From Henriciella sp. (GTDB lineage Bacteria > Pseudomonadota > Alphaproteobacteria > Caulobacterales > Hyphomonadaceae): a stretch of DNA of 64,000 bases. The stretch lies in assembly GCA_013213785.1 (NCBI GenBank), contig JABSPZ010000013.1, positions 1 through 64,000 of the forward strand, read 5' to 3'. The notes beneath the pieces were generated by a model. The model did not search any database, was not told the DNA's origin, and saw only the letters and a program-made list of their open reading frames with translations. Made by a program: the position numbers and the translations under genes. The first letter of the stretch is position 1; each line of letters opens with the position of its first letter. Shown piece by piece: positions 20,634 to 25,624 of the stretch.

Positions 20634-21419
20634 ATGGCATATGCGCCTTTTGATTTGACGGGAAAAGTTGCCCTCGTCACCGGCGGAAATCGCGGGATCG
20701 GGTATGGAATGGCAGAGGCGCTCGCGGCCTCAAATGCGAGTATCGCGGTCTGGGGGCGTAAAGACGCCGCGAACAAAGCCGCGGTCGAGTCACTTTCCAA
20801 GCTGGGCGCAGGCGAGGTGAAGGCCTGGACGGTTGACGTGTCGGACGAGCAAGCCGTGGTCGATGCAACAACTGACGTTGTTTCAAGCATGGGCCGGATC
20901 GATAGCTGTTTCGCAAATGCAGGCGTTGGCTTTGGCGCGCCAAGCTTCACAGAAATGACCACTGAGATCTGGCGCAAAAACATGGCCGTTAATTTGGACG
21001 GCGCGTTCTGGACCCTGCGCGAGAGCGTCAAGCACATGACGGAGCGCGCAAAAGCCGGCGATCCAGGTGGCTCCGTCGTCGGCGTTGCTTCGCTTGCTGG
21101 GATTGAGGGAGCGGCGCGTAATCAGGCTTACGCGGCCACCAAAGGCGGGCTTCCATCGATGATCCGAGGCATCGCCGCGGAATGCGGTCGCTATGGCATT
21201 CGTGCCAATTCCATTCTGCCGGGTTGGATTGCGACCGATATGACTGAGCTGGCGCAAGACAGTGATGTGTTCACAACCAAGGTCATCACGCGCGTCCCGA
21301 TCCGACGCTGGGGCGAACCAGAGGACTTTGGCGGCATGGCCGTCTATCTTGCGAGCGATGCGTCTCGCTATCACTCTGGAACAACCTGCATCATTGATGG
21401 CGGCTACGCGATTTTCTAG
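20634..21419 (+). CDS. Short-chain dehydrogenase/reductase (classical SDR)
   Basis: 261 residues with TGGNRGIG (16-23) for cofactor, NAG (about 95-97), catalytic Ser153, and YAATK (Tyr166, Lys170), then the PGWIATDM loop and a GTTCIIDGGY end. A classical NAD(P)-dependent alcohol/ketone oxidoreductase of the FabG type; substrate unknown. Its own terminator hairpin was split by the mobile cassette that begins about 47 bp after the stop. Confidence 0.9.
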   Translation: MAYAPFDLTGKVALVTGGNRGIGYGMAEALAASNASIAVWGRKDAANKAAVESLSKLGAGEVKAWTVDVSDEQAVVDATTDVVSSMGRIDSCFANAGVGFGAPSFTEMTTEIWRKNMAVNLDGAFWTLRESVKHMTERAKAGDPGGSVVGVASLAGIEGAARNQAYAATKGGLPSMIRGIAAECGRYGIRANSILPGWIATDMTELAQDSDVFTTKVITRVPIRRWGEPEDFGGMAVYLASDASRYHSGTTCIIDGGYAIF

Positions 21420-21445: not shown

Positions 21446-21466
21446 GGCCCTGCGCATCTGGCAGGG
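21446..21466 (+). terminator. Left copy of the terminator hairpin, interrupted by the cassette
   Basis: The bases after an A-run read GGCCCTGC-GCATCTG-GCAGGG, then run into the cassette instead of completing GCAGGGCC plus T-run. Six of the eight stem pairs survive. The complete right half is at 24988-25010. Before insertion this was a single bidirectional terminator between the SDR gene and the convergent lipoprotein gene. Confidence 0.75.
21448..21466 (+). repeat. Direct repeat, left copy, flanking the mobile cassette
   Basis: CCCTGCGCATCTGGCAGGG, identical to the 19 bases at 24988-25006. Because the inverted repeats start with G and this repeat ends in GGG, the true target duplication can be read as 13 to 19 bp. 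Confidence 0.85.
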
Positions 21467-21490
21467 GGTATAGAAATATCTGAAATTAAA
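21464..21490 (+). repeat. Terminal inverted repeat, left
   Basis: Begins GGGGGTATAGAAATATC and continues TGAAATTAAA. The inverted copy at 24964-24990 differs at two positions only (CC for TG). Together they bound the cassette. Confidence 0.85.
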
Positions 21491-21496
21491 TACTCT

Positions 21497-21530
21497 AGCC
21501 CCGCTTGTAAAAAAGGCGGGGCTTTCTTTT
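21497..21530. terminator. Hairpin just inside the left end of the cassette
   Basis: Perfect 8-bp stem AGCCCCGC / GCGGGGCT with an 11-base loop, followed by TTCTTTTT. It reads as a terminator for plus-strand transcription entering from outside. A counterpart lies inside the other end. Confidence 0.75.
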
Positions 21531-21586
21531 TAGCTATGAGTTTGCTCGTCCCATCGCGGAGCTAGCAAACTTACAGCGCAGGACAA

Positions 21587-21769
21587 TCATCCATTCTCCT
21601 GCGAGACCAAGCTTTTCATCACGGTGTTTAGTGGCTCTAGAAGAGATCTGACATGGTTAGCGGACGCTTCATCATCGATGATCATGGTACGAACGGTATT
21701 CTCATACACTTGTGAAGACGTAAGCCCGAGCAAATTCGCAACCGCTTTTTTTACGCCAGTCTTCTTCAG
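21587..21769 (-). pseudogene. C-terminal fragment of an unknown protein
   Basis: An open frame of 60 codons to a TGA, starting abruptly beside the IS3 remnant. It has a good helical, charged composition (KKTGVKKAVANLLGLTSSQV, then NTVRTMIIDDEASANHVRSL) and no start codon of its own. It is most likely the tail of a gene whose front was removed when the IS3 copy or a deletion arrived. I do not recognise the family; a lost transposase or DNA-binding protein of the cassette is possible. Confidence 0.4.
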
Positions 21770-22286
21770 TGGGTATGATGCACAAAAACCAGCTGCATCA
21801 GATCAATGACGATAGCGAGGTAAAGCCAGCCCTCATGCGTGCGGATATAGGTGATGTCGGTGACCCAAATCTGATCCGGTTCCGCCACATCGAAATCCTG
21901 CCTCAACTGGTTTGCGGCAATGATGGATGGCGTGCTGCCATGCTTGCCAGGGCGGCGCTTATAGCCAATCTGTGCGCGCAAACCCTCAGTCCGCATGAGC
22001 CTGGCTACTGTGTTCTCGGCGCAGCGCTCACCAAGGCTGAGCAGATCATGATGGACCTTGCGATAGCCATACACACCCCCGCTCTCCAGCCATGACTGCT
22101 TGATCAGCCCGGTCAGGTGACGGCGGCGCCGGGCCTGCGGCTTTAGTTCAGCCTTCAGCCACGCATAGAACCCGCTGAAATGAACCCCGAGCACACGGCA
22201 CATCGCCCGCACCGAAAACTCAGCGCGGTGATCCTTAATGAAGGCGTACTTTAGCCGTGGTCCTTCGCGAAGTACGCCGTTGCCTT
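21766..22286 (-). pseudogene. IS3-family orfB, truncated (DDE transposase)
   Basis: In the -1 frame after the slippery site the sequence reads KYAFIKDHRAEFSVRAMCRV, then GVYGYRKVHHDL and DQIWVTDITYI, which holds the first catalytic Asp of the DDE triad. After WLYLAIVIDL the frame runs into unrelated sequence and stops within 10 codons. The second Asp and the Glu are missing, so the transposase cannot be active. Confidence 0.88.
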
Positions 22287-22520
22287 TTTTAGGATGTCAC
22301 GCTCCTCAGTCACCCGGCGCAGCTCAGCCTTCAACCGCTTGATCTCTGAGGCGTCCGCACTGGTGTCTGGCGCATCGCCGAACCGCTTTACCCAATCATA
22401 CAGCGACTTGCTGCTCACCCCGATCCGCTTGGCCACCGAAGTCACGCTGTGTCCTCGATCTGTGACCTGCGCCACGGCTTCGCGCTTAAACTCTTCTGTA
22501 TATCTAATCCGTCCCGACAT
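22251..22520 (-). CDS. IS3-family orfA (helix-turn-helix protein)
   Basis: 89 residues from an ATG with AAGGAG upstream. MSGRIRYTEEFKREAVAQV opens an IS3 OrfA, followed by the helix-turn-helix SVTSVAKRIGVSSKSLYDWV and a leucine-zipper-like segment (IKRLKAELRRVTEERDILKK). It ends YFAKDHG. On its own it binds IS ends and can repress; with the broken orfB it has no transposition role. Confidence 0.88.
   Translation of the reverse strand: MSGRIRYTEEFKREAVAQVTDRGHSVTSVAKRIGVSSKSLYDWVKRFGDAPDTSADASEIKRLKAELRRVTEERDILKKATAYFAKDHG
22284..22290 (-). other. Programmed -1 frameshift site between IS3 orfA and orfB
   Basis: The minus strand reads A-AAA-AAG within ILKKATAYF, the classical slippery heptamer of IS3 elements. 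Slipping back one base joins orfA to the orfB frame. Confidence 0.8.
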
Positions 22521-22583
22521 GGGCCCATACTCCTTGCTTCCAGTTTTACCTTGCAAGGCGTCTACCGTTCTAGGGGCACATCA

Positions 22584-22681
22584 GCCTCTGGATCTGCAAA
22601 GAAGCTCTCATATACCTTGAAATCGCCAGGTCTCAGCTCGCGAAGGATCAATCGTTCCGTTGTGATGGTTGGAATAGTCAT
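22584..22681 (-). pseudogene. N-terminal fragment of a GNAT acetyltransferase
   Basis: From the ATG at 22681 the frame reads TIPTITTERLILRELRPGDF and then YESFFADPEA, a standard RimJ/RimL-type acetyltransferase N-terminus. It breaks where the IS3 remnant begins. The rest of the gene is not on the far side of the IS, so the IS arrival was followed by a deletion. Confidence 0.65.
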
Positions 22682-22708
22682 TCGAGCGCTCAAAACATAT
22701 CTATACTA

Positions 22709-22725
22709 CAGACCCGTTTAGTACG
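22709..22725. promoter_or_regulatory. Inverted repeat between the kynureninase-like and acetyltransferase-fragment genes
   Basis: ACCCGT-TTAGT-ACGGGT, 6-bp arms with a 5-base centre. It could be an operator of the lost acetyltransferase gene or a short hairpin at the end of the upstream transcript. No T-run of note. Confidence 0.3.
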
Positions 22726-22827
22726 GGTGACTGAAACGATCTAGCACTTGATTGAGAGTCCATTTTAGGGCGGTCTAGGACGCTCCTGCGCTCAAACGGA
22801 GCCAGTCTGAACGCTCGAAAATCGGCT

Positions 22828-23928
22828 CTAAAACAATCGCGATGAAAAGGCGTCTATCAACAGCTCGATCTCCTCCTCATTCGTGTAAGCGTGCACCGAG
22901 AAACGGAAGCCTTCTTTGCGCTCGTCGCAGCGGATGTTTCGCTTAGATAGTTTCGCACGAAGCGGTTCCCGATCGAGTAGACTGATCACGAGTGCACCGC
23001 CGCGCGCACCTTTGGTGCGCGGTGACACCAGGGTCTCATGCGAAACAGCGGCGCACAGTCGGTCCAGGTGGGATTGAATGCGCGCGTGCACCTTCACCGA
23101 ACCGACCTTTCTCCATAGGTCCAGGGCTGCAGTCGCCACCACGAATGGCGCGGGCGACGGTGTCCCGCCGAAGAAGCGCATGGCTGAGTCGGCGTAGCGA
23201 AAACTCTGAATGTCCATCTCGAACGGTTGTTCGTGCGAGAACCAACCAACATCCACGGGGGTGCAAGTTTCGATCATCTCGTCGGAGGCATAGAGAAAGC
23301 AGGCGCCGGGTCCGAAACACAGGAACTTCACGCCCGTGCCGAGTGCAAAATCCGGCTGCCAGAGACTAAGATGCACGGGGATCGCCCCAGCTGATTGAGC
23401 AATGTCGACAATGCTGATCGCGCCTCGGTCGCGGGCAAGTGCGCAAAGCTCTGCGACAGGTGCCAGTTTCGACGTATTCGAATAAGCATGGGTGATGTGG
23501 ACCAGCCCAACACTGTCATCAAAGGCCTCCGCCCAAGCGTCCAGGTCAGACACGTCACCTTGCATGAACTTGACGCGGAACCCCATCCGTTCAGCTTGTT
23601 TGTATACGAAGCCTGTGGTCGGGAAGTCTTCCAGCGAACACAGGATTGTTGGCTTAATAGTTCGAGCCGGTAAGGAATAGAGCAACTTTGTCAGACCGCT
23701 CGAAATGTTGGTCTGCGGACAAAGATTACGCGCCGGGCTTCCTAGATATGCGCCAAGCTGGGCCCGAAATGTGTCGAGAACATCCAGCCATCCCGGCCAG
23801 GCGTTACCGCCATGGGTCTTCCATTGTTGGATATAATCCTGACCCAGCCGGTCAGGCGCTGTTTTCGGTAAGCAGCCTACCGAGTGGGATAAGAAATAAT
23901 TATTTGGAACGTGAAAGTGCTCACGCAT
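22828..23928 (-). CDS. Kynureninase-like PLP enzyme (aminotransferase class V fold)
   Basis: 366 residues from the ATG at 23928. The N-terminus NNYFLSHSVGCLPKTA and QWKTHGGNAWPGW resembles the kynureninase opening (a SxGxxP turn followed by a Trp-rich helix). Asp175 (SIVDIAQSAGAIPV) would hold the pyridine nitrogen of PLP, and Lys201 in GTGVKFLCFGPGACFLY matches the Schiff-base lysine in the kynureninase-like GGPG context. Kynureninase splits kynurenine to anthranilate and alanine. The start overlaps the dioxygenase gene by 8 bp, so the two are coupled; a start at 23964 is possible. The family is fairly sure, the exact substrate is not. Confidence 0.72.
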   Translation of the reverse strand: MREHFHVPNNYFLSHSVGCLPKTAPDRLGQDYIQQWKTHGGNAWPGWLDVLDTFRAQLGAYLGSPARNLCPQTNISSGLTKLLYSLPARTIKPTILCSLEDFPTTGFVYKQAERMGFRVKFMQGDVSDLDAWAEAFDDSVGLVHITHAYSNTSKLAPVAELCALARDRGAISIVDIAQSAGAIPVHLSLWQPDFALGTGVKFLCFGPGACFLYASDEMIETCTPVDVGWFSHEQPFEMDIQSFRYADSAMRFFGGTPSPAPFVVATAALDLWRKVGSVKVHARIQSHLDRLCAAVSHETLVSPRTKGARGGALVISLLDREPLRAKLSKRNIRCDERKEGFRFSVHAYTNEEEIELLIDAFSSRLF

Positions 23929-24667
23929 CCGTCTTGGGCTCGAGCTTGTCCCGCTTGACGCCATGAGACGCGCCCCAGCGATCAGTCATTTCTGCGCGGG
24001 CGCTCCATAAGTCCGGGAAAAATTTCTGCCGAACCCCGGCATCCAGGATTTCCACTGGACGGCCCTTCAGTGAATTCGCGGCCACTCCAATAGAGCGATA
24101 GATCAGCTGCATATGGGCGTTGCGAAATTTCTGAAATTGCTCGTCAAACTCCGCCAGTGCCTCAGCCACCATATAGGCTCCATCGTGCGAGTATTCGCTG
24201 TCATAGACCTGTTCGAGCGTCCGCTTTCCGCCCTCAAGGTAGATATCGACAAAAGTTTGCCAGAGGTCTTTAGGCATTTTCAAAAGCACTCGAAATCCGG
24301 GGCTCTCCTGGCCGCTGCCATTTCCGAGCAGAAGGCGGATTTCCTGATAATCCTTGGGTGACATGGTCTCTAGCAAGGCAAGCTGAGTGCTCATCATTTC
24401 CTGACACAGGTGGACACGGCGAAATAGCGTTAGCGCCTTCAAAGTCCGACCCGCACGCATCTCATCGTCAATGTCGAGGAGAGTTGTGCCCATCAGTTTC
24501 ATCCACAATTCTTCGACCTGGTGGACGATCATGAATTGTAACTCGTCCGGATTGCACAAGTCTTTTGGCTCTTTCTGACACGCCAGAAGTCGTTCGGTGT
24601 TCAAATAGATTTCGTAGTCGAGCTTGCCCGCGCCACGCATCATTTCGAGGTATTCTTTACGGTTCAT
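23921..24667 (-). CDS. Tryptophan 2,3-dioxygenase-like haem protein, divergent active-site loop
   Basis: 248 residues. Compared from memory with bacterial tryptophan 2,3-dioxygenase, the conserved indole-side His (His49 in FMIVHQVEELWMKL), Tyr107 and Arg111 (SPKDYQEIRLLLG, carboxylate binding) and the proximal haem His (His185 in RNAHMQLIYRSIG) are all present. So are SGQESPGFR and FFPDLW. The glycine-rich GTGGSSG loop expected after the haem His is absent; VAANSLKGRPVEILDAGVRQ stands in its place. Standard enzymes open tryptophan to N-formylkynurenine. The changed loop, which normally contacts the amino acid end of the substrate, suggests another substrate or product. The start at 24667 is chosen with a GA-rich ribosome site. 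Confidence 0.78.
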   Translation of the reverse strand: MNRKEYLEMMRGAGKLDYEIYLNTERLLACQKEPKDLCNPDELQFMIVHQVEELWMKLMGTTLLDIDDEMRAGRTLKALTLFRRVHLCQEMMSTQLALLETMSPKDYQEIRLLLGNGSGQESPGFRVLLKMPKDLWQTFVDIYLEGGKRTLEQVYDSEYSHDGAYMVAEALAEFDEQFQKFRNAHMQLIYRSIGVAANSLKGRPVEILDAGVRQKFFPDLWSARAEMTDRWGASHGVKRDKLEPKTDA

Positions 24668-24827
24668 GGTTTTCTCTCTCTTGAATTTTGTTGAATTCAA
24701 AAGACGAGGATCAGCCGTGGCCGGTCAGCCAGTCGCGAAGAACGTGTTGTGCTAATGGAATGATTGGGTCGCGATGCATGACACATCAATAACAATCATG
24801 AACTTAATCGTATACCCATTTGAAGGA

Positions 24828-24844
24828 GCGCTCTGCAGGAGCGC
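24828..24844. promoter_or_regulatory. Palindrome upstream of the dioxygenase-like gene
   Basis: GCGCTC-TGCAG-GAGCGC lies about 160 bp before the start at 24667, in a 300-bp non-coding stretch that should hold the promoter of the two-gene unit. It is a candidate operator. No regulator gene is present in the cassette. Confidence 0.35.
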
Positions 24845-24931
24845 GAAATTGCTTGGCAGCCAGCGTCCGGTTTAGGGCGTCTTAAGTCGCTCGCGAATGT
24901 CCGCTGAGACGCCGAAAGAGACCATGAGAAA

Positions 24932-24957
24932 AGGCCCGCAGAATAATCCACGGGCCT
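24932..24957. terminator. Hairpin just inside the right end of the cassette
   Basis: AGGCCCG / CGGGCCT arms with a 12-base loop, followed on the plus strand by CAACTTTTT and on the minus strand by TTTTC. Together with the left-end hairpin it insulates the cassette from outside transcription. Confidence 0.7.
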
Positions 24958-24963
24958 CAACTT

Positions 24964-24990
24964 TTTAATTTGGGATATTTCTATACCCCC
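24964..24990 (-). repeat. Terminal inverted repeat, right
   Basis: On the minus strand it begins GGGGGTATAGAAATATC and continues CCAAATTAAA, matching the left end with two differences. Confidence 0.85.
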
Positions 24991-25006
24991 TGCGCATCTG
25001 GCAGGG
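24988..25006 (+). repeat. Direct repeat, right copy, flanking the mobile cassette
   Basis: CCCTGCGCATCTGGCAGGG, identical to 21448-21466. It continues into GCCTTTTC, completing the right arm of the original terminator. Confidence 0.85.
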
Positions 25007-25036: not shown

Positions 25037-25450
25037 TTACTCGGTTGTTTCTTCCTCAACAGCTTCTTCGGCGTCAGCGACAGCTTCTTCAACAGCTTCT
25101 TCAGCTGCGTCCATCATGTCACCGGCTGCATCAGCGACAGCGTCGCCGGCATCAGTCGCCATTTCAGTAGCGGCGTCGGCGGCTTCAGAAGCCGTTTCAG
25201 CAGCTGCGTCTACAGCGTCGCCTGCAGCTTCCATCGTCGCGTCAGCGGCGTCGCTTGCGGCTTCACCTGTTGCGTCGACAGCAGCTTCAACAGCATCGCC
25301 AGTTGCTTCGGCTGCATCACCTGCGGCTTCAACAGTAGCTTCTGCTGCGTCTTCTACGGCGTCTGCAGCGGAATCAGCGGCTTCCTCAGCAGCGGTACAC
25401 GCGACCAAACCAGCCGCAGCAACTGCTGCAATCCAGAGTTTCATACTCAT
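25037..25450 (-). CDS. Ala/Glu/Asp-rich repeat lipoprotein
   Basis: 137 residues. A lipoprotein signal (AGLVACTAAE) is followed by a mature chain made almost only of Ala, Glu, Asp, Thr, Val and Met, in repeats such as DAVEAAVDATGEAASDAADA and EAVEEAVADAEEAVEEETTE. Spacing of about 7 or 11 residues suggests an amphipathic, very acidic helix or coiled coil, LEA-like in composition. There are no catalytic motifs. GGAAGAG upstream supports the start at 25450. Before the cassette arrived it shared a bidirectional terminator with the SDR gene. Probable envelope structural or stress protein, by inference. Confidence 0.75.
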   Translation of the reverse strand: MSMKLWIAAVAAAGLVACTAAEEAADSAADAVEDAAEATVEAAGDAAEATGDAVEAAVDATGEAASDAADATMEAAGDAVDAAAETASEAADAATEMATDAGDAVADAAGDMMDAAEEAVEEAVADAEEAVEEETTE

Positions 25451-25624
25451 TGTCTCTTCCCCTCTAGAAGATACGCCACAATTGGCGTGACGGGATAATA
25501 CGGGAATCGCGTATAAATTGCAGGGGGAAACTGCAGAGGGGGATTTTGGCCCAGATTTCCGCATGGGAATGCCTTGTCTTACCGCAAGGTTGCCCTCCTA
25601 TCAGGCAGGAAACAGGAGGCACTT

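Follow-up and report, generated by a model that had tools for sequence, protein, structure and literature searches.

Mobile insertion cassettes (MICs; for example MIC231 and the cassettes on Proteeae plasmids, PMC3913671) consist of terminal inverted repeats around passenger genes, contain no transposase and are presumed to be mobilised in trans. Genomic islands bounded by attL and attR carry a direct repeat at their borders. A further group to consider is formed by IS1272 and TnSha1, which, in the portions available of two papers, are described as targeting hairpins, terminators among them, without a primary-sequence consensus; the insertion sequence (IS) IS1272 removes or replaces the stem-loop and leaves no duplication (PMC4923244, PMC5678879). 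Wan et al. (2017) also drew a pathway b for IS1272, a hypothetical alternative in which the joining takes place at the 5' feet of a cruciform, so that the entire stem-loop is duplicated, and the passages available contain no observed case of it (PMC5678879). Here we describe an element in Henriciella sp., present in a stretch of 64,000 nucleotides (the window; contig JABSPZ010000013.1, positions 1 to 64,000) that lies on contig C9 of the genome, whose 3.36 Mb are spread over 50 contigs. This element, element 1, is a genuine, clearly delimited cassette that resembles a transposon but has no transposase of its own. The gene pair that it carries was most likely acquired horizontally, and the element appears to have inserted into a terminator hairpin, part of which is now present on both of its sides.

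Element 1 is a 3521-bp block (21467-24987) that splits what would be one terminator between two convergent genes. A first-pass annotation of the window had proposed that inverted repeats of about 27 bp with two mismatches bound the block and that an identical repeat of up to 19 bp flanks it, and both proposals hold. The terminal inverted repeats (21464-21490 and 24964-24990) are 27 nt long with two mismatches when three G of the target hairpin are included, and their first 17 nt are identical (GGGGGTATAGAAATATC). The 19-bp direct repeat CCCTGCGCATCTGGCAGGG, which corresponds to the inner part of the terminator stem plus the loop, is exact at 21448-21466 and 24988-25006. The features that make up the two borders are the following:

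21448..21466, no strand: left copy of the 19-bp target duplication (terminator hairpin CCCTGCGCATCTGGCAGGG), from the repeat comparison and the empty site in five congeners
21467..21490, plus strand: left terminal inverted repeat, 24 nt with two mismatches to the right one (27 with the three target G)
21497..21523, plus strand: inward terminator behind the left end, from the looser scan; its fold of -19.0 kcal/mol (z -3.4) was equalled by 1 of 200 shuffles
24933..24956, minus strand: inward terminator behind the right end, from the strict scan and its fold
24964..24987, minus strand: right terminal inverted repeat, which pairs with the left one
24988..25006, no strand: right copy of the 19-bp target duplication, from the repeat comparison and the empty site in five congeners

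As had been predicted, taking the block out restores one terminator: the joined flanks of element 1 fold as a single hairpin of -22.3 kcal/mol (z -5.98; none of 200 shuffles was as good). The comparison with relatives lacking the insert that had been suggested gives the same picture, since five of 40 other relatives, all congeners (G002, G005, G007, G015 and G024), match across the join of the flanks without interruption, and their aligned empty sites read AAAAAAGGCCC...GGGCCTT with no insert; the rest gave 23 partial matches, mostly to the SDR coding part, or no match (12 relatives). Two features expected of a mobile insertion cassette, a target duplication and an empty site, were both found, the empty site for element 1.

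The other line of evidence comes from copies of the end elsewhere in the genome. In the readable sequence of the genome, with masked stretches excluded, the 13-mer GGTATAGAAATAT occurs at up to one mismatch in four places, all of them exact: the two window ends, C14:69938 and C17:1739. The latter two adjoin genes other than the cargo of element 1, so that the search for a second locus with the same repeats and other cargo, proposed in the first-pass annotation, was successful. Next to each of the four ends stands a terminator hairpin that is present in exact duplicate and lies between convergent genes; a hairpin is the target at both loci. Outside the C14 and C17 ends, where the convergent genes encode a thiolase and a GST, lies an identical 20-bp hairpin (CCCCGGCCAGATGGTCGGGG). 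Contig C14 stops 743 bp past its copy of the end, inside an IS that is present at several other contig ends, and C17 starts with what is, judged by its inverted repeat, the other end of this IS. Because the 20-bp hairpin outside both ends is identical, we infer that they are the two sides of one second element, element 2, cut by an assembly gap at an IS. Each of the eight congeners examined has a hairpin terminator 3' of its thiolase gene, which indicates that at least the left site of element 2 is an old terminator. None of three proteins from the readable interior of element 2 reaches the cut-off of a curated family. The interrupting IS presumably belongs to the IS3 family, judging by eye from its first open reading frame. 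It is a multi-copy IS that breaks the assembly on C14, C7, C25, C28, C36 and C40 (left ends) and on C17, C18, C24 and C31 (right ends), and no matching duplications of 3-4 bp were seen between the flanks among the copies compared.

The ends of the two elements have more in common than their repeats. Behind each of the four end repeats there is an inward-facing, GC-rich hairpin followed by T residues (folds of -18.2 to -21.0 kcal/mol, z -3.4 to -4.6), and over about 100 bp the right end of element 1 and the left end of element 2 share 84% identity. A strict scan of 147 kb of own-genome sequence returned 17 terminators on both strands, three of which are at element ends; the fourth end terminator appeared only in a looser scan, which found 6 in that region versus 3.9 in shuffles. 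It should be noted that the flanking hairpin copies have lost the T-tract on the side of the insertion, and the terminators borne by the element probably replace its function for both neighbours. The GC content is 45-46% in the left part of the cargo of element 1 and in the two parts of element 2 that were read, which are thus AT-rich beside the window (56%). The architecture is also unlikely to be due to chance. In 194 fetched sequences, each 2.5 kb or longer (1.0 Mb in total, overlapping loci included), a single direct repeat of 16-40 bp was seen to have inverted repeats immediately within it, and with a direct repeat of 14-40 bp there was again a single case in 762 kb of the own genome; these scans are blind to element 2, since it is split over two contigs. 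The hairpin-plus-loop target and the terminator at every end, as well as the origin of the gene pair and the internal IS3 remnant treated below, went beyond the first-pass annotation.

The cargo of element 1 is as had been described, namely two metabolic genes and no intact transposase. The corresponding features are:

22828..23964, minus strand: kynureninase-like pyridoxal phosphate enzyme, 378 aa (Aminotran_5, PF00266, 4e-20)
22865..24794, minus strand: captured segment, 87% identical to G024 over 1931 bp
23921..24667, minus strand: tryptophan-dioxygenase (TDO)-like protein, 248 aa (PF03301, 7e-24), overlapping the kynureninase-like gene

Both reading frames are open and overlap. The closest solved sequences are a TDO for the TDO-like protein (5e-18) and a kynureninase for the kynureninase-like one (7e-22). 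Against the equivalog models, the TDO-like protein scores 117 bits (TIGR03036, tryptophan 2,3-dioxygenase; cut-off 391) and the kynureninase-like protein 80.6 bits (TIGR01814, kynureninase; cut-off 246), and because both are below the cut-offs these matches do not settle the substrate. A TDO match at E 0.001 is present in 16 of 61 genomes, the own one included, and nine others have at least 62% identity. In eight of the nine homologous loci a kynureninase gene lies next to that for TDO; at one locus a contig end cuts the kynureninase gene. The pair is located 3' of parA-parB-P450 in four congeners (G024, G010, G007 and G028), where no repeats flank it, and no direct or inverted repeat longer than 14 bp was found within 6 kb on either side of the nine homologous TDO loci, eight of which are informative. 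A second locus and an empty site, the absence of which had been named as speaking against a mobile unit, both exist, and the repeat-free pair in relatives that had also been named was found, but at another locus. The own genome retains parA-parB-P450 but without the gene pair there. The P450 gene (L074, G000:C19, 2488-3816) lies directly 3' of parA-parB, and its product scores 434 bits against the SolI model, which has a cut-off of 850; at loci L052, L053, L054 and L055, in four congeners, the P450 gene is followed by the TDO/kynureninase pair.

The divergence of the pair points to another lineage. The DNA identity to G024 is 92% for the TDO gene and 84% for the kynureninase gene, whereas it is 74-78% for parA, parB, P450 and SDR; the corresponding synonymous divergence (dS) is 0.40 and 0.64, versus 2.5, 2.0 and two saturated values for the four comparison genes. 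Relative to G007 the pair shows no such excess (83% and 69%, versus 74-82% for the four genes). As the pair is far closer to G024 than the four other genes are, it most likely was acquired horizontally from a lineage near G024 rather than from the own genome, a reading based on sequence divergence, and the possibility that it merely moved within the own genome was dropped after this comparison. The repeat-free parA-parB-P450 locus of the congeners looks like the source: in G024, the captured segment runs from just downstream of the P450 gene to near the end of the kynureninase gene. Beyond this homology (22865-24794) the kynureninase tail departs from G024, which we read as a fusion into older element DNA. 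Ratios of nonsynonymous to synonymous divergence (dN/dS) of 0.04 (TDO) and 0.12 (kynureninase) versus G024 indicate that both cargo genes are under constraint.

On the basis of these data, we consider it probable, at about 0.72, that the elements are non-autonomous, cargo-carrying transposons of the mobile-insertion-cassette type that are moved in trans and duplicate their target hairpin. A DDE-type transposase provided in trans would attach the ends to the two strands some 19 bp from each other, in both cases on the 5' side of the stem of the target, and repair of this stagger would duplicate the hairpin. The insertion would part each hairpin copy from one U-tract, after which the end terminators would take over for both neighbours. 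The cargo would have entered when a piece of chromosome was placed, by illegitimate fusion, between old element DNA and one of the ends. Both elements look like products of pathway b as far as it is set out in the passages available, except that the duplicated part stops 1-2 bp before the foot of the G-C stem (PMC5678879). The same sequences would result from a simple staggered cut of about 19 bp if each strand were cut at a preferred G^CCC step. More tentatively, and as a reading that we rate somewhat below even odds, there may be a whole class of cassettes that live in bidirectional terminators, whose transposase cuts the 5' feet of the cruciform and duplicates the stem-loop, whose replacement terminators spare the neighbours, and which take up pairs of chromosomal genes and carry them from one species to another.

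Several observations weigh against the main reading, transposition in trans with duplication of the target hairpin. Element 2 is read across an assembly gap, so that C14 and C17 are joined by inference; the IS that interrupts it shows no matching target duplication on its left versus right flanks; and in G011, G021 and G024, the three congeners with a long match to both flanks of element 2, the two flanks are on different contigs. Close matches to the CCCCGGCCAGATGGTCGGGG hairpin occur at other sites in the genus, and hence two separate terminators are conceivable. The duplication of a hairpin is deduced from two insertions only, with duplication lengths of 19 and 18-20 bp, and a cut of fixed length without hairpin recognition may also fit these lengths. 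No third element turned up in 762 kb of the own genome or in another 321 kb of it, which share the window and contig C17 with the first set and returned only element 1 again; some bases are masked in both sets. Finally, no transposase with matching ends was found in the readable own genome; it may be located in unread or masked parts of the genome or in the gap of element 2.

The rival explanation that survives best, although we regard it as improbable, is a site-specific island: a circle that a tyrosine recombinase inserts at terminator hairpins, with the direct repeat as the att core and the inverted repeats as the arms of a symmetric attP. The joined ends plus the hairpin would indeed form a long dyad, and both hairpins contain CATCTGGC; however, the two loci have two different cores, each duplicated without change, even to a G-T mismatch in the second core; target duplication accounts for this directly. 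Moreover, neither element 1 nor the three scanned proteins of the readable part of element 2 has a match to a recombinase family. Slightly less probable still is mobilisation by an IS1182-type enzyme, such as that encoded by the copy on contig C25, in the way in which IS1272 mobilises TnSha1. The gene on C25 is intact, and IS1272 and TnSha1 target terminator hairpins, but the passages available describe IS1272 as replacing the hairpin without duplication (PMC4923244, PMC5678879), and the inverted repeats of the C25 copy (ATACTGTTGAAAAACTC) are unlike those of the element. Homologous recombination at shared terminators could have moved the gene pair without any transposition, and close matches to the second hairpin at several congener sites would suit it; we nevertheless hold this to be very unlikely, as it does not yield inverted repeats at all four ends and no repeat longer than 14 bp flanks the pair at the eight informative loci in relatives. 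The view that IS3 copies moved the genes as a composite transposon and that the outer repeats are accidental, for which the IS3 remnant inside element 1 and the IS3 look by eye of the IS that interrupts element 2 might speak, is already contradicted, and has almost no probability left, because the IS3 copy of element 1 is single, internal and truncated with no IS pair at the borders and exact copies of the outer repeats stand elsewhere next to different content.

The search for the mover and for related ends extended beyond these two loci. The first-pass annotation had suggested a non-autonomous transposon moved by a transposase elsewhere in the genome: the non-autonomous unit stands, but no gene with matching ends was found, the full-length, transposase-encoding element that it advised looking for did not turn up in the readable own genome, and the IS1182 repeats differ. 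In element 1, a family search of its open reading frames found no intact transposase, only an IS3 orfA and a partial IS3 orfB, and neither an IS1182 transposase nor inverted repeats matching IS1182 were found (the comparison of the ends covered only the IS1182 copies in G000 and G019). Both the internal IS3, truncated and single, and IS1182, with its non-matching inverted repeats, were thus rejected as movers. The contigs C11, C27 and C35 of G019 (L181-L183) carry three IS1182-family copies that are identical over 1565 bp, all at contig ends.

A 14-mer of the end was absent from all 60 other relatives (1 of 61 with the own genome). Across the class, 13 of 385 genomes, the own one included, had a match at one mismatch, versus 15 for a reversed control, and the 12 other genomes were judged by eye only; of the plasmid searches with the ends, one gave a single 27-bp match at E 0.03 and the other none. 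Among 11 exact genome matches to the 17-mer, one, L043, which we take to be of Chloroflexota type, has a hairpin in the right place and was tried as a cross-phylum relative of the end. It was judged unrelated, since its hairpin is part of a repeat of its own: in its genome (G471, L208-L230) the MITE-like repeat (resembling a miniature inverted-repeat transposable element) GGTGAAGAAATATCCCAAATGTCAACACAACCTA has 23 matches at up to three mismatches, versus none in the reversed control, and 16 of the 23 copies stand behind a nearly identical CCCCGCATTTTAATGCGGGG-like hairpin, which shows that in G471 the hairpin belongs to the repeat. Despite this rejection, GGTGAAGAAATATCCCAAATGTCAACACAACCTA agrees with the right end of element 1 in 18 of 20 letters. 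The other 28 exact 17-mer matches (10 genome, 18 viral) have no stem longer than 4 bp at the expected place.

The remaining features are remnants inside element 1 and the genes of the host on either side:

20634..21419, plus strand: host SDR gene, left of the terminator and pointing towards it
21587..21765, minus strand: C-terminal fragment of a gene, adjoining the IS3 remnant; no family at cut-off, best Pfam E 0.023
21766..22212, minus strand: IS3-family orfB, truncated (model positions 103-243 of 369)
22251..22556, minus strand: IS3-family orfA, from the family search
22562..22681, minus strand: N-terminal gene fragment, no Pfam or NCBIfam match
22755..22785, no strand: internal copy of the right-end motif, 31 nt, 74% identical to 24862-24892
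25037..25564, minus strand: host alanine-rich gene (lipoprotein-like by eye), converging from the right

We take the fragment at 22562..22681 to resemble the start of a GNAT acetyltransferase, and the internal motif is perhaps the remnant of an older end. The alanine-rich protein has no Pfam match and its codons are strongly repeated. The unit had been described as self-contained, which is correct in that it is bounded by repeats and has no transposase of its own, but it is not free of IS DNA.

If element 2 is confirmed, the two elements would provide a natural two-copy case of terminator-hairpin duplication, so that the model of attack on a cruciform could be tested directly. Ends that bear terminators hint at a way for a transposon to stay neutral to its neighbours, and a likely donor locus of a chromosomal gene pair, its empty target and its mobile form are all visible here. 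In the literature covered (titles, beginnings of abstracts and the matches listed, with few subscription journals), there was no report of a hairpin-duplicating terminator cassette. Compared with attL/attR islands, the elements share the direct repeat at the border, but no integrase was found, there are inverted repeats at the ends and the repeat differs per locus. They resemble IS1272 and TnSha1 in having a hairpin target, and TnSha1 in carrying a metabolic gene from the chromosome of another species, as described in the part of the paper available (PMC4923244); unlike in these systems, the stem-loop is duplicated and not replaced, there is no transposase inside, and the IS1182 copy of the own genome has other inverted repeats. 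The elements are most like the mobile insertion cassettes, with which they share matched terminal inverted repeats around non-transposase genes (plus the truncated IS3 remnant in element 1), and from which they differ in that a parent IS with these ends was not found in the sequences searched, in the hairpin duplication of 18-20 bp and in the end terminators. Thus, the kind of element, a cassette mobilised in trans, is known, and the duplication of a hairpin combined with terminator-bearing ends is a new variation of it.

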